IMG/VR virus record: IMGVR_UViG_3300030329_005480
Span: 1 to 31,819 of that record
Strand: one strand, 5' to 3'
DNA length: 31,819 nucleotides
Origin: a virus
Shown here: positions 3,972-31,545 of the stretch, piece after piece
How the letters are laid out: each line of letters opens with the position of its first letter
Numbering within the stretch: the stretch's first letter is position 1
Translations under genes and position numbers: made by a program
Notes under the pieces: model-generated
Told to the model about the DNA's origin: nothing
The model's input: the letters and a program-made list of their open reading frames with translations, nothing else
Databases searched by the model: none

Positions 3972-4135
3972 CAAATGACCAGTGAGATTTGGGCTCAGGT
4001 TGGCTAGCTACTTCCAACCGTTTGGCCGCAGGTTACCGACGAATCGCCGGTCCCGTTGTCGTCAACGAAGGGAGTTGACTGGTTCGTTCAAAGTACCACC
4101 TTCGGAACAAAGCCTTCTGAAACTCCCTTCGCTTA
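3943..4135 (-). ncRNA. Structured non-coding region, candidate phage RNA or 3' UTR
   Basis: The 250-nt gap between the zinc-ribbon gene (ends 4142) and the terminator holds no plausible gene but several perfect inverted repeats. These are an 11-bp arm pair (4066-4076 with 4121-4131, 44-nt loop), a 6-bp hairpin (3998-4003 with 4014-4019), a 7-bp hairpin (3970-3976 with 3987-3993) and the terminator. Together they would form a roughly 190-nt structured 3' RNA. No known RNA family is recognised. It may be a processed small RNA or a stabilising 3' UTR. Confidence 0.4.
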
Positions 4136-4141
4136 TCAGTA

Positions 4142-4498
4142 TTACCCGCTTTCGGAAGTTTCCTCAATATCGCGTACTTTCTGGTGCTCCCCTTTGGTAA
4201 CGCACTCCACGCAGTTTCGGTGGGCTCGATGACGGAACGCCGGCACCTTCCTTACCGTCGTTTGGCAGTCGTGATGGCTGCAATGAAACACCTCCACTGG
4301 CTTCGTTGCGCCACACCCGCAGTCCTGCGGTGCGATCGTGCGAATAACCTCGTCACCTCGAGCTGGACAATACGTTCCGTAGTCTAAGATCGTGCCGTCG
4401 CGATGACCGATCACTGCCCGACACGAGCAGTGCAGCGGAAAGACAATGTCAGCAGGATACTTTTGTTCGCAGAGAGGACAGAACCAAACGTCAGGCAC
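4142..4498 (-). CDS. Cys-rich multi-zinc-ribbon protein
   Basis: 118 aa with a GTG start (4498-4496) overlapping the TAG of the fibre gene by one nt, with GAGG about 8 nt upstream. It has many Cys/His: CPLC at residues 7-10, HCSC, a CGCG cluster, and HCSHHDC, consistent with two or more zinc-ribbon folds. The C-terminus is charged (KGEHQKVRDIEETSESG). It is the last gene before the strong terminator and follows the fibre gene immediately, so it may be a fibre partner or a late regulator. No specific family recognised. Confidence 0.6.
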   Translation of the reverse strand: MPDVWFCPLCEQKYPADIVFPLHCSCRAVIGHRDGTILDYGTYCPARGDEVIRTIAPQDCGCGATKPVEVFHCSHHDCQTTVRKVPAFRHRAHRNCVECVTKGEHQKVRDIEETSESG

Positions 4499-6192
4499 TA
4501 GATGTCCCTCGCTCGAACGTATGTGAAGAGTGTGTCACAGGTAGTCGCGTTGCCTTCAGGCTGAGGGAAGATCACGTCCATGTCCTCGCACTCAACCTTC
4601 CCCACGAATGTTTTAATCCAGGTCTCATACTCAGGCTGGCTCGCGATGTAGGCAACTGCCTTCAGCACGGTCATTGTCGTCACGTCATCATCTTCGTCGT
4701 ACGACATTGTCAGACGGACGATTCCTGTTGAATCCGGATCACTGAAGTCACACGGGACGGTTCCAGCTGAGTGCTCGTGTTCCCACACGCAATCCGGAGC
4801 GAATCCACCAACGTGCAATAGCGAATAGGATCCGTTGTTGTTTGTGCAGCAGGAATTCGGTGAACTACTGAACCCAATGAAGTCGAGAACGAGTGAGGCG
4901 GGGACAGCATCTTCGCAGGCCTTGCAGTCATCGCCATCTCCGCACTTGGCACACCCAGCCAGGTCGCGGTCGCGGTGGGTCCGAGATCCCTTCCAGTCAT
5001 CGACCGTAACTGCACCAACGGTCGTGCTTCCTTGACCGCACCCGAACCCTGCCTTCGTCCCCTCTCCGAGGTTAAGGATCGGTGTCGTAAGAGTCACCGT
5101 GTTCAGGCTCGCGTTCCCTGGAGCATTGTCTGGTGCATCTAACACCGTCGTTCCGGTCTGTGCGTACGTTGCGGTGACCGTCGCTCCAGTCGGCTCTACG
5201 CAAAGCGTGATCCGATATCCTGCTCCCGGTTGGCCCGACATCGTCTTTTGGGTCGTTTGTGCAACCTTCCCGCCAGCGGTCATCTTGAACATCTGGAGGG
5301 TCGCGTGGCCATAGAAGTACTCGACTTCAACAAACCAGTAGTCTGTGTCGTTGCGATAACCGGCGATCAACCGGACCTGTACTCCGACCTCGGTGCCGCG
5401 CAACATACCTTCGATGATCTGGCCATCGAGACGAATGTGCCGATCGAAGATGTCACTGAGGATGATGCAGTCGTTGCCGGTCATTGCGGCTTTGTTTTCG
5501 TCGATCTCCGCGCTGCCAGCTTGGTTCGTCCATTCGCACCCAAGATCGCTGGCATCGTCTCGATCGAAGTCGTCCGCGTGCATCTCGCAGCTCAGAGCGC
5601 ACGAGATGCACCCAGCTGCAATCTTGTGAAACAGGAAGTTGTCGACTTTGTTGCTTGAGGCATTTCGGAATCCAGCTTTGGTTCCTGTGCCCATCGTCTG
5701 CGACGCGTCTTCCTGGCGGACCATCCATGGCTCACCCTCTTCACCGAGAATCATGCCCGTAAGATGCACGCCATCGTGGCAGCCGCGGATCGTGTAGACC
5801 TCTTGCTTGACGAAGTCTTGCAGCTCCCAGCCAGTGCCCAACTCCGTAAGCGTGCCGCCCTCCTTTTCGTAGAGTGCAAACGTCGCACAGTCACCCGAAC
5901 CTGGAGTCAGTCGCACCTCGTGATAGTTGTCTTCGTCCGTGTAGTTGAGGATGACGCTACCGAATCCTCCACTGTCACTGTCGATGTAAATGTCGCCCTG
6001 GACCGCGTGGGCATCTCCCGAATGGGTGTTGTTGTGAACGATGGTCCCTGCTGTCGTGCAGTTCAGAGTTCCACCACTGATCGAATGCGCGCCGCTCGGC
6101 TGGGAGTAACTACCGATCGAGTCGCTTGAGTATTCGTCCTGAGCAACAACACAGGTCACTCCGGCGCAGCACTTGTTCCGACGCCGACTCAT
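4498..6192 (-). CDS. Tail fibre/lectin-like protein with two ConA-like repeats
   Basis: 564 aa; ATG 6192 has GAGGAA 5 nt upstream. Two tandem domains of about 190 residues each begin with a D-x-F/Y-x-x-D motif (residue 19, DEYSSDSIGSYS; residue 207, DDFDRDDASDLG) and each closes with GTKAGF. This layout is typical of jelly-roll (concanavalin A-like) modules found in receptor-binding or surface proteins. A Cys-rich hinge (CAKCGDGDDCKAC) links them to a C-terminal domain of about 130 residues. It lies downstream of hub genes, as expected for a host-contact protein. It ends in TAG, directly followed by the GTG of the next gene. Confidence 0.6.
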   Translation of the reverse strand: MSRRRNKCCAGVTCVVAQDEYSSDSIGSYSQPSGAHSISGGTLNCTTAGTIVHNNTHSGDAHAVQGDIYIDSDSGGFGSVILNYTDEDNYHEVRLTPGSGDCATFALYEKEGGTLTELGTGWELQDFVKQEVYTIRGCHDGVHLTGMILGEEGEPWMVRQEDASQTMGTGTKAGFRNASSNKVDNFLFHKIAAGCISCALSCEMHADDFDRDDASDLGCEWTNQAGSAEIDENKAAMTGNDCIILSDIFDRHIRLDGQIIEGMLRGTEVGVQVRLIAGYRNDTDYWFVEVEYFYGHATLQMFKMTAGGKVAQTTQKTMSGQPGAGYRITLCVEPTGATVTATYAQTGTTVLDAPDNAPGNASLNTVTLTTPILNLGEGTKAGFGCGQGSTTVGAVTVDDWKGSRTHRDRDLAGCAKCGDGDDCKACEDAVPASLVLDFIGFSSSPNSCCTNNNGSYSLLHVGGFAPDCVWEHEHSAGTVPCDFSDPDSTGIVRLTMSYDEDDDVTTMTVLKAVAYIASQPEYETWIKTFVGKVECEDMDVIFPQPEGNATTCDTLFTYVRARDI

Positions 6193-9153: not shown

Positions 9154-11027
9154 TGGTTCTTCGCTTGTAGTCTCTTGGCTTTTGGTTCAGCTGGTTCCTG
9201 GCGAACGGGAGGTCCGTCGGGAACAACTCGCTGCGGTTTGTCCCCCTGTTTGTTGATGGCGTCGGCGACATCTCCCAGCTTGTTGACGACCTGCTGGCCC
9301 TGCTGCTTGGTCATCGGAGCTTCGCCAGCAGGCGCGATGTTCATGCCTGGGGCAACGCCGAATGATTGCAGGGTTTGGTCAGCGAGCTGCCGTTCCTTTT
9401 GTCGCTCCTTGGGATCAAGAAGGCGATCTTCTCGTTGATCTTCCCTTCGCTGCTTCATCAGCGTTCTCTGGCGGTCTCGCGCAAGTTCAAACTGCTCAAT
9501 TGCCATCGCAAGGGCTCGCGCCTTCGCAACATCCTCTGGAGCGGCCTCGACTTCCATCGCAGCAGCCCCAGGACCGAAGCCACCAACCATACGTGTAGCG
9601 AGAAGTTTCTGTCTTCTGGCTTTCAACTCGTCGACCGCTGCCTGCATTTGCTCTACGACCGTGCCTTTTTTGGGGAAGATATCCTTGATCAGTTTCTTGA
9701 CATCCGCTTCAGCGCCGAACATTCCGCTCTGCAGCAAGGTCTTGGTGACGCTCTCATTGATCGTCTCGCGAATGCCCTCGTCCAGTTGTGCACGCATTTG
9801 CCTTTCGCGGCCGCGGTCCAAATCTCGCTTCAATGTCGCTAGTTGCTGCGACCGACTGGAGTTGATCTGCCTTTGAAACCGCTCCTGCTCGGCAACGTCC
9901 TTATCACTCAGGTTCCCGATGCGTTTTCGCAAGTCTTGCATGCTTCTCACGCCAGTGGACCCTGGAACCGTCAGTTCCGCAGCGGCTACCTTTGTTTTGA
10001 CTTCTGAGCGCGCCTCACCCTTGGGGAGTCGATCGCTTCGCCTTCTTTCGTCTTCAAGCTGCTGCGGTGTAAATCCAAACGTTCCGAACATGCGACGACG
10101 CGCTTCGAGATTGCCTTGGACAAACTTCAACTGTTGCTCGCTCGTTCCCTTGAATCCAAGTTCCAGCGTGATTCGCTTCATGTCCGCAAAGAACTTTTCG
10201 ATCTGGGTTGCGCTTTGCCGACCAGTTGGATCCTCCGAGCGCTGTGAGATCTGAGCGGCAACCCCAGCAAGGAAGTTAAAGTCGTCCCGTTCTCCGGTCT
10301 CAGACGTTGAAAAACTGCGGGACTTCATGATTGATGGCAGCAAGTTGCGCGATAGTGACGCCATGTCTGTCACGCGGGCGGTCGTAAACAGTCCCGAGAC
10401 ACCACTGAGTGCCTTGTCGGCACTCACGTTGAACTCCTTGATGACCGCAAAAGCACCTTCAGTAAGCTGAGCCAGCTCGGCAGGCTGGTCAGCCAGGTCG
10501 GGACGAAGTCGTGCGCTTTTGGTTAGCACGTCCACAGCTTCTGCCGCCGTTCGTTCACCACGAGATGACAGCGTCGTTTCCGCAGCCAACGCTAGCGACT
10601 TTTTCGAGACACCAGTTTCTGTGGATGCTCGCTCCAGCCGGTCATCTAGCTCCTGCGGTGTCAGGTCAGCACCACGACCCAAAGCATTCAACGCACGTCG
10701 CATCGCATTCGCTTCACTGATGTTGAGGTCAGCGATCTCTCGCCGCATCTGCCGCTGCCGTTGGATGTTCGACATGATCATGTTCTGAATCGTCGACAGT
10801 CCCTGCATCATCGATCCCATGCCCGCACCAGCAGCCAGAGATCGGGCCATCTCCATTCCCCACTTACGAATGGTTGAGCCGACGGCTTTACCTTGACGAT
10901 TGAACTTCTGCGTCGCTCCCTCCATTCGTTTCATCATCGAGTCAAACTGCTGAGCAAACTTCTGTAGGTTCGCGACAGCAGCTTGCTGGGCAACGAGCAG
11001 TTCGATTTGGGCAGCGTTCTTCGCCAT
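9150..11027 (-). CDS. Tail tape measure protein
   Basis: 625 aa, almost wholly alpha-helical. It has Gln/Ala-rich N-terminal helices (IELLVAQQAAVANLQKF), a short Gly/Met-rich segment (GAGMGSMMQGLS), and long charged coils rich in Arg, Glu and Lys towards a Pro/Gln-rich end. The longest helical gene before the tail-tip genes is normally the tape measure, which sets tail length inside the tube. At the usual 1.5 angstrom per residue it would set a tail of roughly 90-95 nm. No lytic transglycosylase or peptidase domain is evident. Confidence 0.75.
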   Translation of the reverse strand: MAKNAAQIELLVAQQAAVANLQKFAQQFDSMMKRMEGATQKFNRQGKAVGSTIRKWGMEMARSLAAGAGMGSMMQGLSTIQNMIMSNIQRQRQMRREIADLNISEANAMRRALNALGRGADLTPQELDDRLERASTETGVSKKSLALAAETTLSSRGERTAAEAVDVLTKSARLRPDLADQPAELAQLTEGAFAVIKEFNVSADKALSGVSGLFTTARVTDMASLSRNLLPSIMKSRSFSTSETGERDDFNFLAGVAAQISQRSEDPTGRQSATQIEKFFADMKRITLELGFKGTSEQQLKFVQGNLEARRRMFGTFGFTPQQLEDERRRSDRLPKGEARSEVKTKVAAAELTVPGSTGVRSMQDLRKRIGNLSDKDVAEQERFQRQINSSRSQQLATLKRDLDRGRERQMRAQLDEGIRETINESVTKTLLQSGMFGAEADVKKLIKDIFPKKGTVVEQMQAAVDELKARRQKLLATRMVGGFGPGAAAMEVEAAPEDVAKARALAMAIEQFELARDRQRTLMKQRREDQREDRLLDPKERQKERQLADQTLQSFGVAPGMNIAPAGEAPMTKQQGQQVVNKLGDVADAINKQGDKPQRVVPDGPPVRQEPAEPKAKRLQAKNQ

Positions 11028-11038
11028 GATCTATGTTC

Positions 11039-11785
11039 CTATGCGAGGTCGAAGGACACGTACTGGTCCTCTGACTCCCACCGTCCGGACAGGATATCTT
11101 CAATGCCAAGAGCAGTCGCCAGGGCGAGCATCATCGACTGTTTGTCGAAGAGCCCCAGCTCGTTGGCGATCTCGTTGGTCACTCGGTAGTTGAGTGCCAT
11201 CATGTCGCACAGCAGCTCCAGTCCGTCGTGCACAGGAAAGACCTGCGTGGTGGGACTGAAGTTCTGCGGATCAAGATCTTCTGAGCGATGCAAGTGGTTG
11301 ATCCCCAAAGCTTCAAACATCGCGTCCCTGATCGCCTCGCAGCGATCGGCAATCGATTTATAAGCTGGCTTCGGTTTCCCAACCCATTGGCGAAACTCGT
11401 TTCGGTCATAGGTCATGGGCAGGTGCTCATCCTGGGGAATGAGCCATTCCATGCCGTCGGCCATCTCGACGTTGCGACCTTCAATCGGATTGCGGTGAGC
11501 TAGTTCGCGCGGAACTGGCGGGCGATCGAGAGGGATGCCAAGCCAGAATGTTTCGTCCTCGCTGAACACCCATCGCTGATTGTCAGGGTTGTACTCAAGA
11601 GCCGGATCTACGTCGGGATTCCCCGTCAACCACGTACAGAACATGCCACGCGTGTCCGACGGATTGCGATCGCATTCAAACCAATCAGGACCACCGCTGC
11701 GACTCAGCGCACCCAGGCCGATCTTGGACAGGTTGTCTTGGCTCGCACCAAAGGCATCGGGAATGAAGATCAGATAATGTGACAC
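11039..11785 (-). CDS. Tail-assembly region protein (GTG start, TAG stop)
   Basis: 248 aa, starting at GTG 11785 with GAGG five to eight nt upstream and overlapping the previous gene by 16 bp in another frame. It is Trp/Asp/Pro rich in the first half (RSGGPDWFECDRNPSD, FWLGIPLDRPPVP), then helical. The place just before the tape measure fits a tail assembly chaperone or an accessory to it, but no family is recognised. It ends in TAG at 11041-11039. Confidence 0.5.
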   Translation of the reverse strand: MSHYLIFIPDAFGASQDNLSKIGLGALSRSGGPDWFECDRNPSDTRGMFCTWLTGNPDVDPALEYNPDNQRWVFSEDETFWLGIPLDRPPVPRELAHRNPIEGRNVEMADGMEWLIPQDEHLPMTYDRNEFRQWVGKPKPAYKSIADRCEAIRDAMFEALGINHLHRSEDLDPQNFSPTTQVFPVHDGLELLCDMMALNYRVTNEIANELGLFDKQSMMLALATALGIEDILSGRWESEDQYVSFDLA

Positions 11786-12366
11786 TCGGCCCTCGCTCGT
11801 TTGATTAGCTCGCTGGTGATTCTCTCGTAAGTCGGGTTTTCGTTGATAGTGCGGATTCGCGCCTCGTAGTCACCAAGCTGGTCGCACAGGATGTAGTTGT
11901 CGAATGTCGTTGGTGGCTCCCCGCCTCCCGTCGCGCGCCACCGCAAGTGCTGTAAGTACCTGGGCTGGCTGATCCTGAATCCTGTTTTGCGAAGTTGGCG
12001 ATACTCCAATATGTCAGCGATGTCGAACATTGACGATATGACGCGAGTGAGTGACTGTGAGTCGAGTAGGCATCGCGCGATGATGTCTTCCTCGTTCAAC
12101 TCGTAGTTCTCTTTCAAACCGCCGATTGCCAGTTCGATTGCATCCTCCGTGGTGACGAGATCGGCAACGCCATGATGCTTGCCGGCACCTTGAACATGCC
12201 CTTCGTTGACCGTATCGATGATGGTCAACAGGTCGAACAGCTTTGTTTGAATCGTCGCGGTTCTAGGGCATTCCGGAGCAGGGGGGACGAGCCATAGCTT
12301 GCCGTCTCCGAGTTCTACCAACCTTCCGGAAGCACTGTCGCGCGCTGGAGCGTCAGTGACATCCAT
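11770..12366 (-). CDS. Probable tail assembly chaperone-like protein
   Basis: 198 aa; ATG 12366, with AGGA about 10 nt upstream. The N-terminal part contains ELGDGKLWLVPP, a phrase common in short tail-assembly proteins. The middle is helical and acidic (ENYELNEEDIIARCLL). In siphophages the gene or gene pair between the tube and the tape measure encodes the chaperones that coat the tape measure. That position, after removing the inserted HNH gene, supports the call. No slippery heptamer was found in the overlap with the next gene, so classic programmed frameshifting is not supported. Confidence 0.45.
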   Translation of the reverse strand: MDVTDAPARDSASGRLVELGDGKLWLVPPAPECPRTATIQTKLFDLLTIIDTVNEGHVQGAGKHHGVADLVTTEDAIELAIGGLKENYELNEEDIIARCLLDSQSLTRVISSMFDIADILEYRQLRKTGFRISQPRYLQHLRWRATGGGEPPTTFDNYILCDQLGDYEARIRTINENPTYERITSELIKRARAECHII

Positions 12367-12373
12367 GTACTAT

Positions 12374-13090
12374 CTATCCTGCGGTCCTCACTTCGTCACG
12401 AATCGTACGTCGCTGGCTACCCCGTGGCGTCGGAGGTCGCGTCAACGCCTCATGAAACGGCCATCCTGAACGGAGCCGCTCCCACAGTGTGTCGTAGGAT
12501 ACGCGGCATCGGGAATCGTCCGCCCACGCCGCAAGGCACTTTGTCTCTCCATCTAGAGTCTGGAATGGAGTGTTGCGGCGATTTCGATTGTTTTCTTTGC
12601 ACGTTACGAAACGGATGTTCCCAGGCTCGTAGTTGCCGTCGTTGTTGGGATAGCGATCGATCTGCAGCCCTGGCTTGTATCCATGAGCGAGTGCGTAGTC
12701 GCGAAACACTTCATATGACTCTTTCCACTCGTCACACACGGTGATACCGCGACCACCATAAAGCAGGTAGTTTGGCTGGTTGGGATCGCAGCACCGAAGT
12801 TTTATGTTGTGCCAACAGTTGTGCAGTGGCGTCCCCGTCTCCCCGTGGGTGGTTCGCTGCCCAAGCTGACGTCCAACATCCACGCGATGGCATCCGCAGG
12901 ATTTCTGGAAATCACGGATGAGATCTGACGGGTAGACAATCTTGTGATTGCCGCAATCGCACTGCACGACGCACGCCCACTTCGGTTTCCCTTTTTCTGG
13001 AAACAGTCGGAACTGAGGACCGACAACAGTTAGCTTGTGGAACCGTGAACCAACCTCAACTTCTCTCCATGAATAACGCAGCCTAAACAT
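12374..13090 (-). CDS. Free-standing HNH homing endonuclease
   Basis: 238 aa with the three-part build of phage HNH nucleases. An N-terminal Cys cluster (C40, C44, C46 and C65, C67) suits a zinc finger. The nuclease core (about 90-172) contains HNCWHNIKLRC, YGGRGITVCDEW, QIDRYPNNDGNYEP and KENNRNRRN. The C-terminal DNA-binding repeat (178-218) reads like the NUMOD-type GetK.laaWa...RL..GW...EAL pattern. Such enzymes cut a target allele and spread the gene by repair. It sits between two tail genes, with a gap of only 4 and 7 nt, and has no structural role. It ends in TAG. Confidence 0.85.
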   Translation of the reverse strand: MFRLRYSWREVEVGSRFHKLTVVGPQFRLFPEKGKPKWACVVQCDCGNHKIVYPSDLIRDFQKSCGCHRVDVGRQLGQRTTHGETGTPLHNCWHNIKLRCCDPNQPNYLLYGGRGITVCDEWKESYEVFRDYALAHGYKPGLQIDRYPNNDGNYEPGNIRFVTCKENNRNRRNTPFQTLDGETKCLAAWADDSRCRVSYDTLWERLRSGWPFHEALTRPPTPRGSQRRTIRDEVRTAG

Positions 13091-13094
13091 CGCT

Positions 13095-14660
13095 CTAGCC
13101 TATCAGGTTGTCGTTGATCGATTCCCCAGACGCTGTATTCGATGGTAACTGTTTTTTCGGTAATCCATACAGGCGATGAAACGCCTTCTGGAAGTCACCT
13201 CGCTGATCGTTCGTAACTGCAACGCTGAACGCGTCGTTGACTGCAAAGTTCTGGCTTCCCTGGAACAGGGCGATGTATGGTCCGCCGACGTAAGCTTCGG
13301 TCATCGGAACAACTGCAACGTCGTCAACGAACACATTCGTTCCGACGGAGATATGGGTCTCTACTTTGAACCGAAACTCGACCGTTGATGGCACTGGATC
13401 CGGAAGTCGGAAGACCGTGCTGTAGGGAGTCCAGTTGGTTGTCGCCACAACCAGATTAATCCCGAAGTCGTTATCGACTCCCTCGTCATCTGCGATGATC
13501 GCTGCGCTGTCATAGAAGGACAGGTTCAGCACGCCAGCAGCTGGAGCTACATCTACCTTCAGTCGCACTTGAACTGCATACGGAACGTGTGCCTTCAGTC
13601 CCGTGATCGCCTGCGACAACTCAATGTTGGTTGCCGTGCCACCGATGAACTTCAGCGCCTTGGATCCGCGGAACACCGTGCTGGACTCTTCGGCAATGTC
13701 CGTTCCACCGGTTCCGGTGTCCAGGCTCCACGATGCCGGGATGTTCGCAGCCCATGCTGCCTCAAAGTCGCCATTGGCCAGCACGTTAACTGTCGTGGCA
13801 CTGGGGCTGCCTACGGTGAGCGTAGCAGCCCCACCCGATCCACTGGGCCACGCGTGATGCAACTTGTCAGTCGACTTGTCGCGTTCACCACTAATGGAAA
13901 AGGACTCTGAACCGCCGGTTGTGTTTGCCGTGCACTTAACGATGATGTCTTCCTGAAGCACGTTCTCGCGAGTCTTGCCGTTGCCGTCGAGGACACTGGT
14001 GACCATCACGCCATTGCCTACGGACGATCGCCACACGCCACCACTGGTGTAAGCCGAGTGAGCCAAACCGTTCTCGTCCTGCAGCTCGAACGTGTTTGTT
14101 GCGACGGATCCGGCAATGAATTGGCGATCGTTGATTTGTGTATGACCACCGACTCCAGTGATCGTCACGATGTCGCCATTGGACAGTCCGTGCCCGTTGC
14201 TGGTGACCACAACAGGATTGGCTTGCGTGGTGTTGGTGATGACTCCGTTCTCTGGACCATCCACCAGTGATGCGATCGTTGGCTCGTTGCCAACGATCGA
14301 CTCGCTGTTCTCCTCCATCTGGCGGATCAGCTCATCCAACGCCAGCTCGACTGTCTTGCTGGGAAGCGGATTGTCGGCATCGACAGTTTCGATCAGCGTC
14401 TTCTCTGCCCATTGCTGAAGAGCAAGGCGAATGTCGTTTGCCCCAGAGTCCTGAAGGCCAGTCAGTGCAGCCAGGATCTCTGTGGTCGTCGAACGGATGT
14501 CGTTCGACGAGGCATCGAACTTCACCAGGGCATCGTTGATCTCGGTTGGCAGATCTCCCGATGCACTTCCACCGATGTGGGTATTGAGGACGTTGAGCGC
14601 ATGGACGATCTTGCCAATCCGATCAAACAGCCCGGTTCCACCGTCGAATGTTATGGTCAC
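13095..14660 (-). CDS. Tail protein with FCCH-like and carbohydrate-binding modules
   Basis: 521 aa; GTG start at 14660, TAG stop. Residues 1-115 are helical. Residues about 140-208 match the beta module often annotated as a ubiquitin-activating-enzyme FCCH-like domain in phage tail proteins (SNGHGLSNGDIVTITGVGG, QFIAGSVATNTFEL). Residues about 290-450 look like a galactose-binding/CBM4-9 jelly roll (NVLANGDFEAAW, PASWSLDT, SKALKFIGG). This combination suits a sugar-binding tail or fibre protein that contacts the host surface. It lies unusually early, directly behind the tube gene rather than after the hub. Confidence 0.6.
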   Translation of the reverse strand: MTITFDGGTGLFDRIGKIVHALNVLNTHIGGSASGDLPTEINDALVKFDASSNDIRSTTTEILAALTGLQDSGANDIRLALQQWAEKTLIETVDADNPLPSKTVELALDELIRQMEENSESIVGNEPTIASLVDGPENGVITNTTQANPVVVTSNGHGLSNGDIVTITGVGGHTQINDRQFIAGSVATNTFELQDENGLAHSAYTSGGVWRSSVGNGVMVTSVLDGNGKTRENVLQEDIIVKCTANTTGGSESFSISGERDKSTDKLHHAWPSGSGGAATLTVGSPSATTVNVLANGDFEAAWAANIPASWSLDTGTGGTDIAEESSTVFRGSKALKFIGGTATNIELSQAITGLKAHVPYAVQVRLKVDVAPAAGVLNLSFYDSAAIIADDEGVDNDFGINLVVATTNWTPYSTVFRLPDPVPSTVEFRFKVETHISVGTNVFVDDVAVVPMTEAYVGGPYIALFQGSQNFAVNDAFSVAVTNDQRGDFQKAFHRLYGLPKKQLPSNTASGESINDNLIG

Positions 14661-14665
14661 AGTTA

Positions 14666-14974
14666 CTACTCGTCATTGGACTCATCGTCGTCGTCATCGC
14701 CCAGGGCGAGCGGCTCTGGCTCTGGATCGGTAACGATTGGAGCTGGCGGCGGGCCAGCTAACCGCACGGCCTTCGCATCCTCTTCCTGCATGGCCAGCAA
14801 CGCGACGAGGATCGGATCTTCTAGACTGGTTGCCAGAAAGGACATTCCCGTTCCACACTTCAGGCAGTTCACCTGCACGTTGATGCGTGTCTCGTGCTTT
14901 TCGCTTGCAGGAAGTTCAGAGGTGGCGACGTCGACTTTGGGAGGCATGCAGTCGCACTTTAGTGCTTCACTCAT
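14666..14974 (-). CDS. Small Cys4 protein with a very acidic tail, ending TAG-TAA
   Basis: 102 aa; ATG 14974 follows the tube gene. Cys pairs CDC and CLKC suggest a small metal-binding fold. A Pro-rich linker leads to a run of Asp/Glu (LGDDDDDESNDE). The stop is TAG immediately followed by TAA. Position after the tube protein is where tail chaperones also occur, but zinc ligands are not expected there. Function unknown. Confidence 0.55.
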   Translation of the reverse strand: MSEALKCDCMPPKVDVATSELPASEKHETRINVQVNCLKCGTGMSFLATSLEDPILVALLAMQEEDAKAVRLAGPPPAPIVTDPEPEPLALGDDDDDESNDE

Positions 14975-23388: not shown

Positions 23389-23841
23389 CTACGTTCCTGG
23401 TGCGTGTTGGCCCGAGTAAACCTCGGACTTCTCTTCGTAGTACTCGTCGTTCACGAGAACGGCTGGCTGTCCGTTGATACGCTCAACCGTTTCCGTCACA
23501 CGAACGTCGATGTGCCAGTTGTTCCCACACTGATTGCATTGGAAGTACCGCCGAAGCAAGCCGCCAACTCGACGGTGGTACTTCTGCTTCGCTGCGTAAC
23601 CTTTGTAGCCACCCCAGCACGCAGGGCATCGTTTGTACGGAGGGATCTTGTCCAGATCCACCTCTTCCGGTGCTTCGGGATCCGGTGACGCATCATTGGC
23701 CGTCGCGGCCGGCGGTGCCGCGTTTTCTGGCGTCGCTGCAGAAGCGGAGTCGGCTTTCGTTTCCTCCTCCTTTTTCTTGACGTCCGGCTCTTTCGCTGGA
23801 GAGTCTTTTGTTCGGTTGTTGGGACGGTTTCTTCTAGACAT
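23389..23841 (-). CDS. Zinc-ribbon protein behind the large terminase
   Basis: 150 aa from ATG 23841, with AAGG 8 nt upstream overlapping the end of the terminase gene; two GTG codons a little earlier are alternatives. The first 75 residues are low-complexity Lys/Glu/Ala/Pro. The folded part carries CPAC and CNQC, a four-Cys ribbon (RCPACWGGYKGY, then FQCNQCGNNW) with an aromatic spacer. Such ribbons bind nucleic acid or protein. Its place after the terminase suggests a packaging accessory. It ends in TAG. Confidence 0.6.
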   Translation of the reverse strand: MSRRNRPNNRTKDSPAKEPDVKKKEEETKADSASAATPENAAPPAATANDASPDPEAPEEVDLDKIPPYKRCPACWGGYKGYAAKQKYHRRVGGLLRRYFQCNQCGNNWHIDVRVTETVERINGQPAVLVNDEYYEEKSEVYSGQHAPGT

Positions 23842-23843
23842 GG

Positions 23844-25871
23844 TCACCACCTTCTGTTGGGTGTTTGGATTCCTGGGTTCACTACCTTTGCTTTGTTGGT
23901 CGGCGGTGCGATGTCGCCGGGTGGACGGATCGGTGCGCCACGAGTCGCCGCGAGAATCGCGATGTACCCGTAACGCCAGATGTCGCGATAGTCATTGGGG
24001 ATGTCGGTGTTGACCCGTCGCCACGATTCACGCTCGTTGTTGTTGGAATCGTTTTCCAAGATCGACGTGTCGTTCAGCAGCTGCTCGAGAATGTCCTGGT
24101 GCTCGGCAACCGTTCCATGGTGAATGGATCCGGCACCAGCATCGCCCGGCATGACCGTATGCAAGATGCCCTCGACCCATCGCTGCGTGCGGATGGTATC
24201 GATCCAGTACAGGTGCATCCCTGGCGTGCGAGTGTTCTTGCCAAGCACGGCCAGCTTGAAGTCAGAGTCGAGCGCCTTGTTAGATCCCTTGCATGGCCAG
24301 CACTGGAACTTCTTATCCTTGACCATCTTCAAGCAGAAGTCAGTCACCGCGCTGTCGGGACGAAAGCCGTCGTCGATCAAACAGAAGCATGGCTTCTGCC
24401 CAGGCCTGTCGTCTTCGCGTTCAAACGTGCGATCAAGAATCAGGTGTTCGACTTCAGTGACATGATCCATGTCTCCGTACTCGATGCACTGATGCCGATA
24501 CTCGGGACCGTAAGCAAAGACGCCGTACGGAAGAAATACTTTCTGTCGATCGACTGCCGCGACAACGTACGTCGCCCATTCGGGAATGACGGCTTGGAAC
24601 TGCGGAGCGATGAACCGGCCGCCGAGGTCTTCCCAGGTAGTTGTGTGTTGCCTGATCTCGACCGTTTCCGCCAGCCAGCCGTTCTTGAAGTTGTGCATCT
24701 CCGTCGGCTTCTTCAAGCAGCTGACGTACTCGGCTGCTACGTCTCCCCAGCCAAGCGAGAGTGCACATAACGATGGCAAGTGGTAGCTGGCGTTTTCATC
24801 GTCCGGTGTCGGTCCCTCGATCCAGTCGGCGTTCTCCCATCCGTGCCATAGTTCGTCACCATCATCGCTGTAGTTGGCGATCATGTCTTCGTACCAGTGC
24901 TCGGCTGCGGCACGGGCTTTGTCGTCAATCGCCGTGCATCCCTCGGGAACCCACACGCCGTGTCGCAACATCTCAGGACGGTGATGGTCGAGAATCGGAT
25001 CGCACTCGCCACTGACGCAGACGTAGTGCGCCGTCCTGCGAGCGTGTGCTTGATCCCAGCGGCCAGACGGATGTTTTTCAAACTCAAGGCGGCCAGGTCG
25101 GTCGTCAACTAGCTCGCCACGTTCGTCACGTTCACCAAAACGAATCGGCTGATACTTGCCACAATGTGGACACGGAACAAAGTAACGGCAGTTGGTTCCG
25201 CGGACCCGACGGCTTTCGATTCGGCTCTTGCCTCGCACCGTTGGTGTCGACTCGTAGATCTGCTTGCGATAACTCCAGAAGTCTTTGAAGCGTTCGTCGA
25301 ACAACTTGATGGGTGATCCTTCACGAGAGGTCGAGACACCTTCCCACCCTGGCTTGTCCAATTCGTTCGCGACGCCAACGCGGATATTCTCATCCCCGAG
25401 CGTTCCTGGCGATCCGGCCCAGGCACCGACGATCTGGCAACGACGGAACTCCACCAGATCAGATGCCTGATCTCTCTTGTTTTTGTGAATGAGCCGACTT
25501 TGCACCTGCGGCATGTTGTTGATCATCTTGTACAGACGATGCACAAACTTCTTCTTCAGCTGCTTCTCTGTTTCGGTCGCCACCATCATTGGGCAGGCGT
25601 CGGTGTCGGCGAAGTAAAGCAATGCTCCTTGGCTGAAGAATGTCTTGCCCAGACGAGTGCCGAACTGCAGGGTGATCGTGCGACAGTGAATGTCGTCCAG
25701 CATGTCCGCCGGCCCGCCAGGGGCACTGTTGTGCGGATAGCTCGCGGGATCGTAAGCACGGCCAACGTCGGTCACCAAGTGCTCGACACACCATCGCGCA
25801 TGACGATGCTTGGCTTCAGGCTCAAAGACCTCAAGCTCTCGGTCGCGATCGTCTTGGACGACTGTGCTCAT
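23844..25871 (-). CDS. terL: Terminase large subunit (gpA-like)
   Basis: 675 aa; the ATG overlaps the stop of the 53-aa gene (ATGA). N-terminal ATPase: P-loop-type GTRLGKT (71-77) and a Walker B-like strand RVGVANELD (164-172), where the expected Asp is Asn169 ahead of Glu170. A Cys cluster typical of gpA proteins follows (CPHC at 232-235, C283/C288). The C-terminal nuclease of RNase H fold has Asp439 in AAVDRQ and CLIDDG (495-500). The enzyme pumps DNA into the prohead and cuts concatemers, working with the Nu1-like small subunit and portal. Confidence 0.9.
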   Translation of the reverse strand: MSTVVQDDRDRELEVFEPEAKHRHARWCVEHLVTDVGRAYDPASYPHNSAPGGPADMLDDIHCRTITLQFGTRLGKTFFSQGALLYFADTDACPMMVATETEKQLKKKFVHRLYKMINNMPQVQSRLIHKNKRDQASDLVEFRRCQIVGAWAGSPGTLGDENIRVGVANELDKPGWEGVSTSREGSPIKLFDERFKDFWSYRKQIYESTPTVRGKSRIESRRVRGTNCRYFVPCPHCGKYQPIRFGERDERGELVDDRPGRLEFEKHPSGRWDQAHARRTAHYVCVSGECDPILDHHRPEMLRHGVWVPEGCTAIDDKARAAAEHWYEDMIANYSDDGDELWHGWENADWIEGPTPDDENASYHLPSLCALSLGWGDVAAEYVSCLKKPTEMHNFKNGWLAETVEIRQHTTTWEDLGGRFIAPQFQAVIPEWATYVVAAVDRQKVFLPYGVFAYGPEYRHQCIEYGDMDHVTEVEHLILDRTFEREDDRPGQKPCFCLIDDGFRPDSAVTDFCLKMVKDKKFQCWPCKGSNKALDSDFKLAVLGKNTRTPGMHLYWIDTIRTQRWVEGILHTVMPGDAGAGSIHHGTVAEHQDILEQLLNDTSILENDSNNNERESWRRVNTDIPNDYRDIWRYGYIAILAATRGAPIRPPGDIAPPTNKAKVVNPGIQTPNRRW

Positions 25872-26029
25872 CTACGCGGCGGCTCCGGTGGTGCAGGCGG
25901 TGGATCCGGAGGAGGATTCTTGGCTGGAGGCCTCCAGTTGACCTCGCCCTCGCTCTGCGGGCGGACGGCAATCAGCACCCACGCGAGAGCACTGAACATC
26001 AGGCCACAACAAAACCCGACACAAATCAT
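25868..26029 (-). CDS. 53-aa membrane microprotein with a Pro-rich tail
   Basis: ATG 26029 overlaps the previous stop, and its own TGA overlaps the terminase ATG (both ATGA). The N-terminus is one membrane span with three Cys (ICVGFCCGLMFSALAWVLIAV); the rest is a Pro-rich tail (KNPPPDPPPAPPEPPRR). The double coupling makes it likely to be translated. A Cys-containing span next to terminase genes is unusual, and no role can be assigned. Confidence 0.5.
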   Translation of the reverse strand: MICVGFCCGLMFSALAWVLIAVRPQSEGEVNWRPPAKNPPPDPPPAPPEPPRR

Positions 26030-27587: not shown

Positions 27588-27630
27588 ATTCACTGTGTTA
27601 CGTCACTACAACCTTTTTGGAGTCTCTCTC

Positions 27631-28098
27631 ATGGCCATGTCTCTTGAAGACTTTGTCGCCACCAAAGAACGGTGTGAAAACCTGGGCTCGCAGTTTGGCG
27701 AAAACGTTCGCGACATCCCAGGATTCATCTACGTCGGCCATCTCTACATCGAAGATCACATCGGCCAAGAGGCTGCTCCCGGCATCTACCCTGGAATGTA
27801 CTTCCTGCTTGTCGATCGCTCCGACTACACCTCAACGGAGATCGAGGTGCTAGAGAAGATCCTTTTTGAGTGGGCTGGGGAGGAAGGCTACCTCGACGAC
27901 GACGGCTCCGAGCTGCTCAACGAGATGGATCAGGTCGATCAGGCGCACATGACGCCAACTAGCATCTGGTGCCCCGATTGCAAAACGTTCACCTTGGCCG
28001 CGTATGCATCAGAGGGCGAACCGCCAGAGCTTCTTGCGTGCGACAATTGCAATGGCAAGTGGCATGTTCCGACGATCGCTTTGAGGAAGATGGCATGA
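27631..28098 (+). CDS. Hypothetical protein with a C-terminal zinc ribbon
   Basis: 155 aa; ATG 27631 has TTGGAG 8 nt upstream (an ATG two codons later is possible). The N-terminal 110 residues are acidic and mixed alpha/beta (VGHLYIEDHIGQEAAPGI, LLVDRSDYTSTEIEVLEK). The C-terminus carries a four-Cys ribbon, WCPDC ... ACDNC, ending in KWHVP. This is the first gene of the rightward accessory cluster. Function unknown. Confidence 0.6.
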   Translation: MAMSLEDFVATKERCENLGSQFGENVRDIPGFIYVGHLYIEDHIGQEAAPGIYPGMYFLLVDRSDYTSTEIEVLEKILFEWAGEEGYLDDDGSELLNEMDQVDQAHMTPTSIWCPDCKTFTLAAYASEGEPPELLACDNCNGKWHVPTIALRKMA

Positions 28099-28225
28099 AG
28101 AAGGTCTATCTTTAGACGGGCGCGAACGGGAGTAGTGACCCGCGTCGCTGAGGCAGTCGCCGGAAAAGATCAGCCTACTGTTGGCTGCTCCAAAAAGGCC
28201 GGCGGCTGCCGAGCCCACCTTTACC

Positions 28226-28568: not shown

Positions 28569-29249
28569 ATGGATGGCCACAAGTACACGGAAGCCGATCT
28601 GAAAGTCGCAGCCGACTGCCTGAAGGAGAACGGGTTCGACCGCGTATCCGATTTCCTTCGGCGATATTACTGGCGAAAGTATGTTCTCACGAGTCTTGTT
28701 CAGGACTGGTTTGAAAGCCTTGACGTCCTTCGATCCTTTGACGATCCAAGGATGACACCAGGGCGATACGTATACGACATGTTCTGCCAGTTTGAGCCAC
28801 CACAACAAGCGAACGTGTGGCTGATGCGATTTCGCAAGATGAACGAGATTAACGATGACATAGTCACTGAACGCAAATGCGGTGTCCTGTCATCCCGCAT
28901 TCTTTACACCAGCGACATCAATAAGGTCGCTGCCGAACTGCGAGAAAACATTGACAAGTGGCTCAACAGCCTGCTGGCAGCACCTTGGCATGAGCAAGGC
29001 GCGTTTGCGGGTGATGAGATCCCGAAGTACGACCTTCCGTATGAGAAGCCACTTATGTCGATGCCCGAGGTGGAGATTGAACCACTCCTTCCGCCCGGCA
29101 TGGTCATCCTTCGCAATCGCGACGGCACGGTTCATCGCATCGAGCTGACAGCACAACCGGAATTCACGCTGCAGGAAGGGAACCGGGCAACGGTTGAGTT
29201 TGAAGGGCGACCGATTCAAGTTCAAGGTAACGACGAGCCAATCGAATGA
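28569..29249 (+). CDS. Hypothetical accessory protein (226 aa)
   Basis: ATG 28569 follows the previous stop by 4 nt. Residues 1-150 are helical with Trp/Tyr-rich turns (RYYWRKYVLTSLVQDWFESL). The C-terminus is beta-rich (PGMVILRNRDGTVHRIELT) and acidic. Its TGA overlaps the ATG of the nuclease gene as ATGA, so the pair is coupled and may act together, for example as a nuclease partner. No family recognised. Confidence 0.55.
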   Translation: MDGHKYTEADLKVAADCLKENGFDRVSDFLRRYYWRKYVLTSLVQDWFESLDVLRSFDDPRMTPGRYVYDMFCQFEPPQQANVWLMRFRKMNEINDDIVTERKCGVLSSRILYTSDINKVAAELRENIDKWLNSLLAAPWHEQGAFAGDEIPKYDLPYEKPLMSMPEVEIEPLLPPGMVILRNRDGTVHRIELTAQPEFTLQEGNRATVEFEGRPIQVQGNDEPIE

Positions 29250-29839
29250 GCGAAATTAAAGCTATCCAGACCCGTCACGGAGACTGTTTCTTTCGCAGTC
29301 GCCTTGAAGCACGATGGTCGATATTCCTAACTGAATCAGAGATTGAATGGGAATATGAGCCCGAAGGTTTCGAGTTGAACAAAGAGTGGTATGGAGCGTG
29401 CCCCGAAGGCGTGCCCCCTGGTCCATACTGCTACCTGCCGGATTTCTGGCTGCCACAGGTGTCAATGTGGGCCGAGGTGAAACGAGGTTGGCCGACACCC
29501 AAAGAGCTTGCTGTGATTGGCCTGCTCGCAGACTGTACTGGGTACTCGGTGCTGATCTTGGATGGCAAGCCTCGCGCCGATTCGTGGTTCTACGGTATTG
29601 ATGGACTTGAGTTTAATCACGGATCTTGGGATCTGATCGTGGACCCCTTAGACATTTGCGAGGGCCACAAATATTGGACATACGAAAGTCGGTTTTACTC
29701 CGAATGGGGCGGACACGCCGAAGAGGCAGCGTGGAACGAACGTCCGCAACTCCCAGACAATGATTGGACGTGGAGGGGTGACTTTGTCCACCAAGCTGTT
29801 ACTGCAGCGCTTAGTGCACGGTTTGAAAGAGACGGGTGA
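29246..29839 (+). CDS. PD-(D/E)XK superfamily nuclease
   Basis: 197 aa. The core matches small phage restriction-endonuclease-like proteins: FRSRLEARWSIFL (16-28, the conserved Arg/Glu helix), YEPEGFEL, and YLPDFWLPQVSMWAEVKRG, giving Asp66, Glu77 and Lys79 as the catalytic PD-(D/E)XK residues. The hydrophobic strand VLILDGK follows. Such proteins cleave DNA, but whether host or phage DNA is the target is unknown. Its last 10 bp, including the stop, overlap the 3' end of the first tRNA gene on the opposite strand. Confidence 0.7.
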   Translation: MSEIKAIQTRHGDCFFRSRLEARWSIFLTESEIEWEYEPEGFELNKEWYGACPEGVPPGPYCYLPDFWLPQVSMWAEVKRGWPTPKELAVIGLLADCTGYSVLILDGKPRADSWFYGIDGLEFNHGSWDLIVDPLDICEGHKYWTYESRFYSEWGGHAEEAAWNERPQLPDNDWTWRGDFVHQAVTAALSARFERDG

Positions 29840-29900
29840 GGGAATCGAACCCTCATCATCCGAGCTAGAATCGGAGGCCTTGCCGTTAGACGAACCCGTC
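29830..29900 (-). tRNA. tRNA-Sup(CUA), copy 1 (U73)
   Basis: A complete cloverleaf: acceptor GACGGGT/ACCCGTC (7 bp), a short D arm (GTC/GGC), anticodon arm TCCGA/TCGGA with loop TTCTAGC, T arm GAGGG/CCCTC with the standard TTCGATT loop. The anticodon is CUA (29868-29866), reading UAG. The discriminator is U. Nucleotide 37 is G, unusual after A36. Amino-acid identity cannot be set from sequence. Confidence 0.85.
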
Positions 29901-29905
29901 TTAAG

Positions 29906-29978
29906 CCTCGGGGGCTGGACTCGAACCAGCATCTAGTGGAACTAGAATCCACGGCTTTGCCAATTAAGCTACCCCGAG
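29906..29978 (-). tRNA. tRNA-Sup(CUA), copy 2 (G73)
   Basis: A complete cloverleaf 5 nt from copy 1: acceptor CTCGGGG/CCCCGAG, D arm GCTT/AAGC, anticodon arm GTGGA/TCCAC with loop TTCTAGT, T arm GCTGG/CCAGC. Anticodon CUA at 29945-29943. G73 and the GATTCTNNTTC-type anticodon arm recall tRNA-Gln, so Gln insertion at UAG is a fair guess. Confidence 0.88.
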
Positions 29979-29982
29979 GTAG

Positions 29983-30056
29983 TGCGGGCGGCAGGAGTCG
30001 AACCTGCAACCAGCGGAACTAGAATCCGCCGCTCTAACCAATTGAGCATGAGCTGG
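29983..30056 (-). tRNA. tRNA-Sup(CUA)-like, copy 3 (A73), 5' acceptor strand not complementary
   Basis: D arm (GCTC/GAGC), anticodon arm (GCGGA/TCCGC, loop TTCTAGT, anticodon CUA at 30022-30020), T arm (GCAGG/CCTGC) and the 3' acceptor strand CGCCCGC with A73 are all intact. The 9 nt before the D stem (CCAGCTC plus AT) cannot pair with CGCCCGC and lack U8. The molecule is probably a truncated or recombined tRNA rather than a working one. Confidence 0.65.
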
Positions 30057-30136: not shown

Positions 30137-30196
30137 ATGGGTGCGATGGAACTCACCATCAAGGAAGCCAATGCATGTCACGGAAGAAAAAACTAA
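30137..30196 (+). CDS. Possible 19-aa leader ORF overlapping the methyltransferase start
   Basis: ATG 30137 has a strong GGGAG six nt upstream, better than that of the methyltransferase, and the frame ends at TAA 30196, 19 nt inside the methyltransferase gene. The peptide (MGAMELTIKEANACHGRKN) has no recognised function. It may couple translation of the methyltransferase or be chance. Confidence 0.3.
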   Translation: MGAMELTIKEANACHGRKN

Positions 30197-31545
30197 ATGT
30201 GGTATCCCTTTTTTCTGGGGCGATGGGTCTCGACGTTGGTCTTGAAACGACCGGTCGTTTTCAAGTCATTGCATGTGTCGAAAAGGAACCATCTTTCTGC
30301 GACTCAATCCGTACAAACCACGCTGCCGGCCGACTGTTTCGCGATCTTCAGGTTTTCGAAGGAGACATTGTCGATGTAGACCCGTTTGAAGTCCTTAACG
30401 CAGTTGGATTAGAGCCAGGACAGGTGGATCTTCTCGTTGGCGGTCCACCATGCCAATCGTTTAGCACTGCGGGCAAACGAAAGACGACACAAGACCCACG
30501 CGGTACGCTGCTTTGGCAATTCCTCCGGTTCATCGAAGCGATGAAACCACGTTTTTTTCTGATGGAGAATGTTCGCGGGCTGCTCTCCGCAGCTCTCCGT
30601 CACCGTCCTATCGCGAACCGACCAAACAAAGGCGGACCGGCACTTGAAGCAGATGAAGAACCAGGTTCCGTGGTTCGTATGTTTGCCAATGACCTCCAGG
30701 AGATTCCCAACGCAGCATACCATATGGACTGTTTTGAAGTGAATGCTGTCAATTATGGTGCTCCCCAGCTTCGGGAAAGGGCATTGTTTATCGGCAACCG
30801 CTACAACGCAGTTGTTGATTTTCCTGACCCCACACATGGACGCTCTAACGAGAACTCGCAGCAAAGTCTCTTTCCAGATCTGAATGCTCCCGAATTGCAA
30901 CCTTGGGCCACTCTTTCGGATGCAATCAGCGGACTCGAAGAGAACGAGGATCGGATAATCATGGATTTCAGCCCGCGTAAGAAGAAGTATCTCTCGATGG
31001 TGCCACCAGGTTCAAACTGGCGAAGTTTGCCCATCGATGTACAAAAGGAATCTATGGGTCGGGCTTGGAACGCAAAGGGAGGGCGTTCTGGTTGGTGGCG
31101 GCGACTTACTTTCGATCTTCCGTGCCCAACACTCGTCACAATGCCAAACCATGCAAGCACATCACTTTGCCATCCCACCGAAGTGCGAGCACTATCGCTC
31201 AAGGAGTACGCACGCATTCAAGAGTTTCCAGATGATTGGTGCTTTTGTGGCAAACCGTCGCAACAATATGCACAAGTTGGTAACGCTGTTCCCGTTAGGC
31301 TGGGGAGGGTGGCCGGTGAAGTAATTGCCGATCAGTTGAACACTTTAGCGAAACGGCAATTCACCCCCTTCGAGAATACGCCGGAATCATATCGAATCGT
31401 CTACATACAGTCTCATGTGAGAACGCGACAGTGGTTTAAGAATGGCGAGACCCTTGTTTGGGATGACTCTGTTTCCAACGACAAACCAGAGTACGCAACT
31501 GCCAAGACGAAGCGAAAGACCACCCGATTGTCCGAGAGAACGTAA
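30175..31545 (+). CDS. DNA (cytosine-5-)-methyltransferase
   Basis: 456 aa; ATG 30175 with AAGGA about 10 nt upstream. All key C5-methyltransferase motifs occur in order: motif I FSGAMGLDVGLE (13-24), motif IV GGPPCQSFS with catalytic Cys93, motif VI MENVRGL (130-136), motif VIII QLRERALFIG (198-207), motif IX RALSLKEYARIQEFPDDW and motif X QVGNAVPV (367-374). It transfers methyl from SAM to cytosine in a specific site that cannot be read from sequence. No partner restriction gene is adjacent, so a solitary, protective enzyme is likely. Base composition seems more AT-rich than the structural genes. Confidence 0.95.
   Translation: MSRKKKLNVVSLFSGAMGLDVGLETTGRFQVIACVEKEPSFCDSIRTNHAAGRLFRDLQVFEGDIVDVDPFEVLNAVGLEPGQVDLLVGGPPCQSFSTAGKRKTTQDPRGTLLWQFLRFIEAMKPRFFLMENVRGLLSAALRHRPIANRPNKGGPALEADEEPGSVVRMFANDLQEIPNAAYHMDCFEVNAVNYGAPQLRERALFIGNRYNAVVDFPDPTHGRSNENSQQSLFPDLNAPELQPWATLSDAISGLEENEDRIIMDFSPRKKKYLSMVPPGSNWRSLPIDVQKESMGRAWNAKGGRSGWWRRLTFDLPCPTLVTMPNHASTSLCHPTEVRALSLKEYARIQEFPDDWCFCGKPSQQYAQVGNAVPVRLGRVAGEVIADQLNTLAKRQFTPFENTPESYRIVYIQSHVRTRQWFKNGETLVWDDSVSNDKPEYATAKTKRKTTRLSERT

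Follow-up and report, generated by a model that had tools for sequence, protein, structure and literature searches.

A phage from the IMG/VR collection carries a row of three tRNA-like genes with the amber anticodon CUA. With moderate confidence, they can be read as two functional amber-suppressor tRNAs and one relic that lacks an acceptor stem, in a phage that uses the standard genetic code. The window, meaning the whole stretch of DNA that was analysed, is the complete IMG/VR virus record IMGVR_UViG_3300030329_005480, with a length of 31,819 bases. The record is classed as linear and may therefore be a fragment. It encodes a GpA-type terminase, a lambda-type portal, a ClpP-capsid fusion, an HNH endonuclease, and a C5 DNA methyltransferase, and it shows no replication genes.

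The three genes lie on the minus strand at 29830-30055 and are the sole tRNAs of the window. Together with their two neighbours they are arranged as follows.

29246..29839, plus strand: convergent gene (phrog_21138), weakly similar to Holliday-junction resolvase
29830..29900, minus strand: tRNA 3, complete cloverleaf, CUA at 29866-29868, G1-C72, U73, glutamine-like
29906..29978, minus strand: tRNA 2, complete cloverleaf, CUA at 29943-29945, C1-G72, G73, glutamine-like
29982..30055, minus strand: tRNA 1, the 5'-most in transcription, CUA at 30020-30022, acceptor stem unformed, not called by ARAGORN
30175..31545, plus strand: C5-cytosine DNA methyltransferase (PF00145, E=2.7e-54), divergent, adjoining the tRNA cluster

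The end of the phrog_21138 gene and the 3' end of tRNA 3 overlap by 10 bases. A consensus scan gave no match to a promoter or terminator for the tRNA cluster.

The anticodon loops read TTCTAGT, TTCTAGT, and TTCTAGC. Each has seven bases, with U33, CUA, and then G37, just as the original prediction described. Within the window, GATTCTAG is found at three places, each inside one of these loops. Chance is no explanation for CUA in all three genes. The three bodies show pairwise identities of 68, 52, and 59%, so they are not recent copies of one another, which bears out a further point of that prediction.

Its claim of three tandem CUA tRNA genes holds for the anticodons, but two of the genes are complete and one is acceptor-less. 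A tRNA finder had been proposed as a check. ARAGORN calls two tRNAs, both with CUA (29829-29900 and 29905-29978), and misses tRNA 1, whereas the Rfam model RF00005 detects all three above its cut-off (60.9 bits at 29906-29978, 54.6 at 29830-29900, and 42.9 at 29991-30047). tRNAs 2 and 3 match the full model, while the match of tRNA 1 spans only model positions 10-63 of 71.

All four stems are present in tRNAs 2 and 3. The fold of tRNA 2 has a z of -2.8, and the minimum-energy structure of tRNA 3 is not a cloverleaf. tRNA 1 has well-formed D, anticodon, and T arms, but its acceptor strands (5' CCAGCTC and 3' CGCCCGC) pair at only 3 of 7 positions. It also lacks U8, with AT standing at the expected position. 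Because of these few acceptor pairs and the missing U8, tRNA 1 is probably a dead gene, broken or recombined (a pseudogene or recombinant). No better replacement for its acceptor strand was found close upstream, and a split tRNA 1, with the acceptor strand elsewhere nearby, was dropped since no candidate lies close by. A match to YrlA (Y RNA-like) over two of the tRNAs reached 36 bits against a cut-off of 69 and is explained by shared tRNA modules. As for the discriminator bases listed originally, U73 of tRNA 3 and G73 of tRNA 2 are as described, but A73 of tRNA 1 carries little weight where no acceptor stem forms.

The origin of the tRNA bodies was approached by comparison with planctomycete tRNAs. 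The closest planctomycete tRNA to tRNA 3 is tRNA-Gln(CUG), whose loop TTCTGGC becomes TTCTAGC by the single change G36A. This accounts for G37 beside A36, a combination that had been called unusual and is not odd given such an ancestor. The body of tRNA 1 is about equally like Trp, His, Met, and Arg tRNAs. With the anticodon masked, isotype models, which place 64 of 109 test tRNAs (59%) correctly, assign tRNAs 2 and 3 to glutamine and tRNA 1 to histidine. The tRNAs may be charged with different amino acids.

A tRNA-Gln is expected to have a U1-A72 pair and G73. The pair is absent from tRNA 2 (C1-G72) and from tRNA 3 (G1-C72), and G73 is present in tRNA 2 and replaced by U73 in tRNA 3. Charging of both by GlnRS is therefore uncertain, with U73 adding to the doubt in tRNA 3.

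Another candidate was tRNA-Pyl, which was rejected, as the ARAGORN label of this name derives from the CUA anticodon alone. A tRNA-Pyl has a compact D arm, a single base between the acceptor and D stems, and a 6-bp anticodon stem. The window tRNAs share CUA with it, but have two bases before the D stem, a 5-bp anticodon stem, and a full D loop. No Pfam family for PylRS or pyrrolysine genes appeared among the window proteins scanned.

The phage uses the standard code, without UAG recoding in the visible 31.8 kb, since no gene there is interrupted by TAG or needs UAG read-through and TAG ends 6 of 36 genes, including structural ones, in a hand-picked set. In a codon-usage-scored set TAG ends 7 of 35. 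Coding coverage is 0.925 under the standard code versus 0.923 with TAG as sense, and all in-frame TAGs under the latter reading are at gene ends or in spurious frames. Coverage, TAG positions, and TAG stops together rule out the suggestion that the phage recodes UAG, as far as its visible genes are concerned. TAG makes up 17-20% of the stops in the window, compared with 0-9% in most relatives and 16% in one relative. The six genes of the hand-picked set are listed below.

4498..6192, minus strand: 564-aa phage gene, TAG end, next TAA or TGA after 28 codons
11039..11785, minus strand: gene with TAG end, next TAA or TGA after 34 codons
12374..13090, minus strand: HNH endonuclease gene, TAG end, next stop after 6 codons
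13095..14660, minus strand: 521-aa gene, TAG end, next TAA or TGA after 12 codons
14666..14974, minus strand: gene with TAG end, second stop directly behind (tandem stop)
23389..23850, minus strand: gene with TAG end, next stop after 2 codons

An in-frame TAA or TGA thus follows these TAG stops after 0, 2, 6, 12, 28, or 34 codons. The median distance to the next stop behind TAA and TGA stops is longer, at 46 codons in the scored set. As an adaptation, these backed-up TAG stops are suggestive only; selection is unproven with six genes, and they were set aside as proof. Four of the six lie together at 11039-14974, a clustering with a hand-calculated p of about 0.04 that was not used. A read-through fusion from an upstream ORF to TerL via the TAG at 25872 was also rejected, because the frame before it does not look like a coding one.

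A short frame (ATG AAG AAG GTC TAT CTT TAG ACG GGC GCG ... TGA) is found at 28095-28150, after the gene at 27595-28098. This intergenic stretch is without explanation.

For a view of the relatives, the capsid protein was aligned with planctomycete prophage relatives and the alignment was used to retrieve related virus contigs. Many were found (the best 46% identical), several of them syntenic for portal, capsid, and terminase; single-protein searches gave no close phage relatives. Of 20 records with related capsids that were searched, 19 gave no tRNA, which makes the cluster look lineage-specific; the last, a distant relative, gave one weak match of 29 bits. A pattern scan of bacterial genomes found none with two CUA tRNAs among the matches listed. 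The planctomycete genome G024 holds a tRNA-like gene (L318 1495-1568) that ARAGORN reads as CUA. Its anticodon loop is an odd one of five bases (CTCGG CTCTA CCGAG), and its other arms are sound.

Several phages with suppressor tRNAs have been described. Sup-CTA occurs in 375 of 715 predicted code-15 phages (PMC11210395). Within recoded genomes, phAss-1 has three tRNA-SUP-CTA and its relatives have two (PMC10607447), so a set of three, which had been thought new, has a precedent. These phages resemble the window in having several such tRNAs, which in their case are glutamine by isotype (PMC10607447). They belong, however, to a class with 136-kb genomes, 28-36 tRNAs, and about 40 genes that contain TAG (code 15) (PMC10607447), whereas the window is a 32-kb record with no other tRNA and no recoded gene.

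Closer in this last respect are the Zeta crAss-like phages, which have Sup-CTA without UAG recoding, suggested in the same paper to act on the host (PMC12386605). Amber suppressors in non-recoded phages have also been described as apparently inactive (PMC12386605). In the Zeta crAss-like phages TAG stops are backed by another stop soon after (PMC12386605), which the window resembles. The CUA tRNA of those phages is one among many tRNAs in about 175 kb, and TAG is rare (PMC12386605), while the window has two or three CUA tRNAs alone and TAG at 17-20% of its stops. The number of CUA tRNAs and the absence of recoding each have precedent, and their combination with no other tRNA in 32 kb is unusual.

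Tandem CUA tRNAs in other phages were sought by a pattern scan of IMG/VR with an ARAGORN check. Three other contigs have two CUA tRNAs each, namely G001 (32.9 kb), G002 (97.6 kb), and G003 (40.0 kb), the last with a tRNA-Lys between the two. Like the window, they have small CUA clusters that are their only or nearly their only tRNAs, and they use the standard code. Unlike the window, in which a six-frame search gave no match to such a gene, each of the three carries a Pth2-like gene immediately upstream of its CUA tRNAs and in the same orientation.

G001 10002-10676 (L135/L439): Pth2-like gene and CUA locus
G002 4093-4807 (L142/L466): Pth2-like gene and CUA locus
G003 about 37158-37800 (L162/L297): Pth2-like gene and CUA locus

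G001 (L298, L299) has 36% GC and two CUA tRNAs as its only tRNAs. TAG ends 0 of its 25 genes, unlike in the window.

The Pfam family PTH2 matches at 2e-7 in G001, at 5e-5 in G002, and marginally (0.07) in G003. A profile of the three proteins matched one further locus, from a fourth CUA phage, at 3e-31 and gave no other notable match among the loci compared. Extended to four sequences, the profile hits solved structures of Pth2 (2zv3, 5.7e-7). Searching IMG/VR with the four-sequence alignment gave 35 Pth2-like loci (including L456 and L439-L473) in many unrelated phages. A CUA tRNA lies downstream on the same strand in 16 of the 35, often within 40 bases. In most of the remaining loci, inspection of the tRNA loops by eye gives UCA; one locus has UUA. 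The link between pth2 and phage suppressor tRNAs is apparently undescribed, as a literature search found no description of it.

An in-frame UAG is present at codons 3-8 of about nine Pth2-like genes, after the start codon and ahead of the conserved core, and no ATG, GTG, or TTG separates it from the core. Across 42 genes, a single UAG lies inside the matched cores. Early UAGs were seen in the following entries, which overlap and together make up the nine or so genes.

G003/L297 17364-17822, minus strand: pth2-like gene beginning ATG ACA TAG
L456 about 2468-2821: pth2-like gene beginning ATG GAA CAC ACT TAG, behind GGAGAGG
LR756501 (INPHARED huge phage): pth2-like gene beginning ATG TCG TAG, behind AAGGAG
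LR756500, LR745206, LR756504 (INPHARED huge phages): pth2-like genes with early UAG
L461, L464, L470, L474, L475, L477, L478: pth2-like genes with early UAG, match start 2501 in each

There is no general recoding in L474 and L475, as the ORFs beside the pth2-like gene lack any in-frame TAG. Since the UAG precedes the conserved core, expression of the pth2-like gene should depend on the suppressor. These sequences point to a circuit in which the suppressor tRNA would permit synthesis of the Pth2-like hydrolase. The hydrolase could in turn clear peptidyl-tRNA that drops off.

Two cultured mycobacteriophages, Myrna and HyRo, also have a CUA tRNA behind pth2.

HyRo, NC_028869.1 92250-92323 (L481 14251-14324): CUA tRNA, not annotated
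Myrna, L476 2966-3037: CUA tRNA, annotated as tRNA-Ser

Both pth2 genes begin RTG-TAG-GTG. The TAG in this first position is ambiguous, because a Shine-Dalgarno sequence is well placed for the GTG that follows. In G003 (L297, about 17800, minus strand) the ATG ACA TAG is preceded, at a distance of about 9 bases, by a near-perfect sigma-70 promoter (TTGACA, 17 bases, TATATT), so that the mRNA gated by UAG may lack a leader. TTGACA boxes stand at similar places in HyRo and Myrna.

Amber suppression was the direct prediction for the window, and the two well-formed CUA tRNAs with different bodies agree with it. If tRNAs 2 and 3 are transcribed, they would probably be charged with glutamine, their loops being the tRNA-Gln(CUG) loop with G36A. 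They would compete with host RF1, and some ribosomes would pass UAG. Because TAG is an ordinary stop in this phage, its visible genes would gain only short C-terminal tails of 0-34 residues, and the useful target would most likely be host genes that end in UAG, or a phage gene outside the contig. Against two working suppressors stand the lack of a consensus promoter or terminator and the break in one of the three tRNAs, as in decay. It is also odd, if suppression were strong, that TAG is not avoided as a stop.

The main rival is decay of a former, larger tRNA array, in which anticodons drifted or were once useful and no tRNA works now. The loss of the acceptor stem and U8 in tRNA 1, the minimum-energy fold of tRNA 3, and the ordinary use of TAG as a stop all fit with decay. 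It is nevertheless unlikely, as two complete cloverleafs are kept and the same CUA loop stands in three bodies only 52-68% identical. A little less likely again is that the window cluster represents the tRNA half of a widespread, undescribed Pth2 gating circuit, as in the other tandem-CUA phages, with the hydrolase gene off-contig or lost. The upstream Pth2-like genes of the three other contigs, the CUA tRNAs just downstream in 16 of 35 loci, the early UAGs, and a linear record without replication genes speak for this. However, the cluster adjoins a DNA methyltransferase, no window gene has a convincing early UAG behind a ribosome-binding site, and the window is not assigned to the Pth2/suppressor module because it has no Pth2-like gene.

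Recoding of UAG in genes outside the record is improbable. Sup-CTA is common in predicted code-15 phages (PMC11210395), recoding can be limited to some gene classes, and the record may be incomplete, but late genes are usually the recoded ones (PMC12386605) and the structural genes of the window stop at TAG. Hardly credible is a role of the tRNAs as decoys or replacements against a host anticodon nuclease, with no part in UAG translation, even though a typical counter-defence gene, the DNA methyltransferase, lies next to the cluster. Phage tRNAs that resist host nucleases are known, but replacement tRNAs should read sense codons.

Amber suppressors in non-recoded phages have no accepted explanation. 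With CUA tRNAs as its only tRNAs, the window provides a clean case for distinguishing between action on the host, a hidden phage gene, and no function. The Pth2 link provides a concrete candidate target for such suppressors, and one that can be tested in the cultured mycobacteriophages Myrna and HyRo. Such a circuit, if it exists, would sense termination at UAG and would have a formal parallel in the UGA of the RF2 gene.
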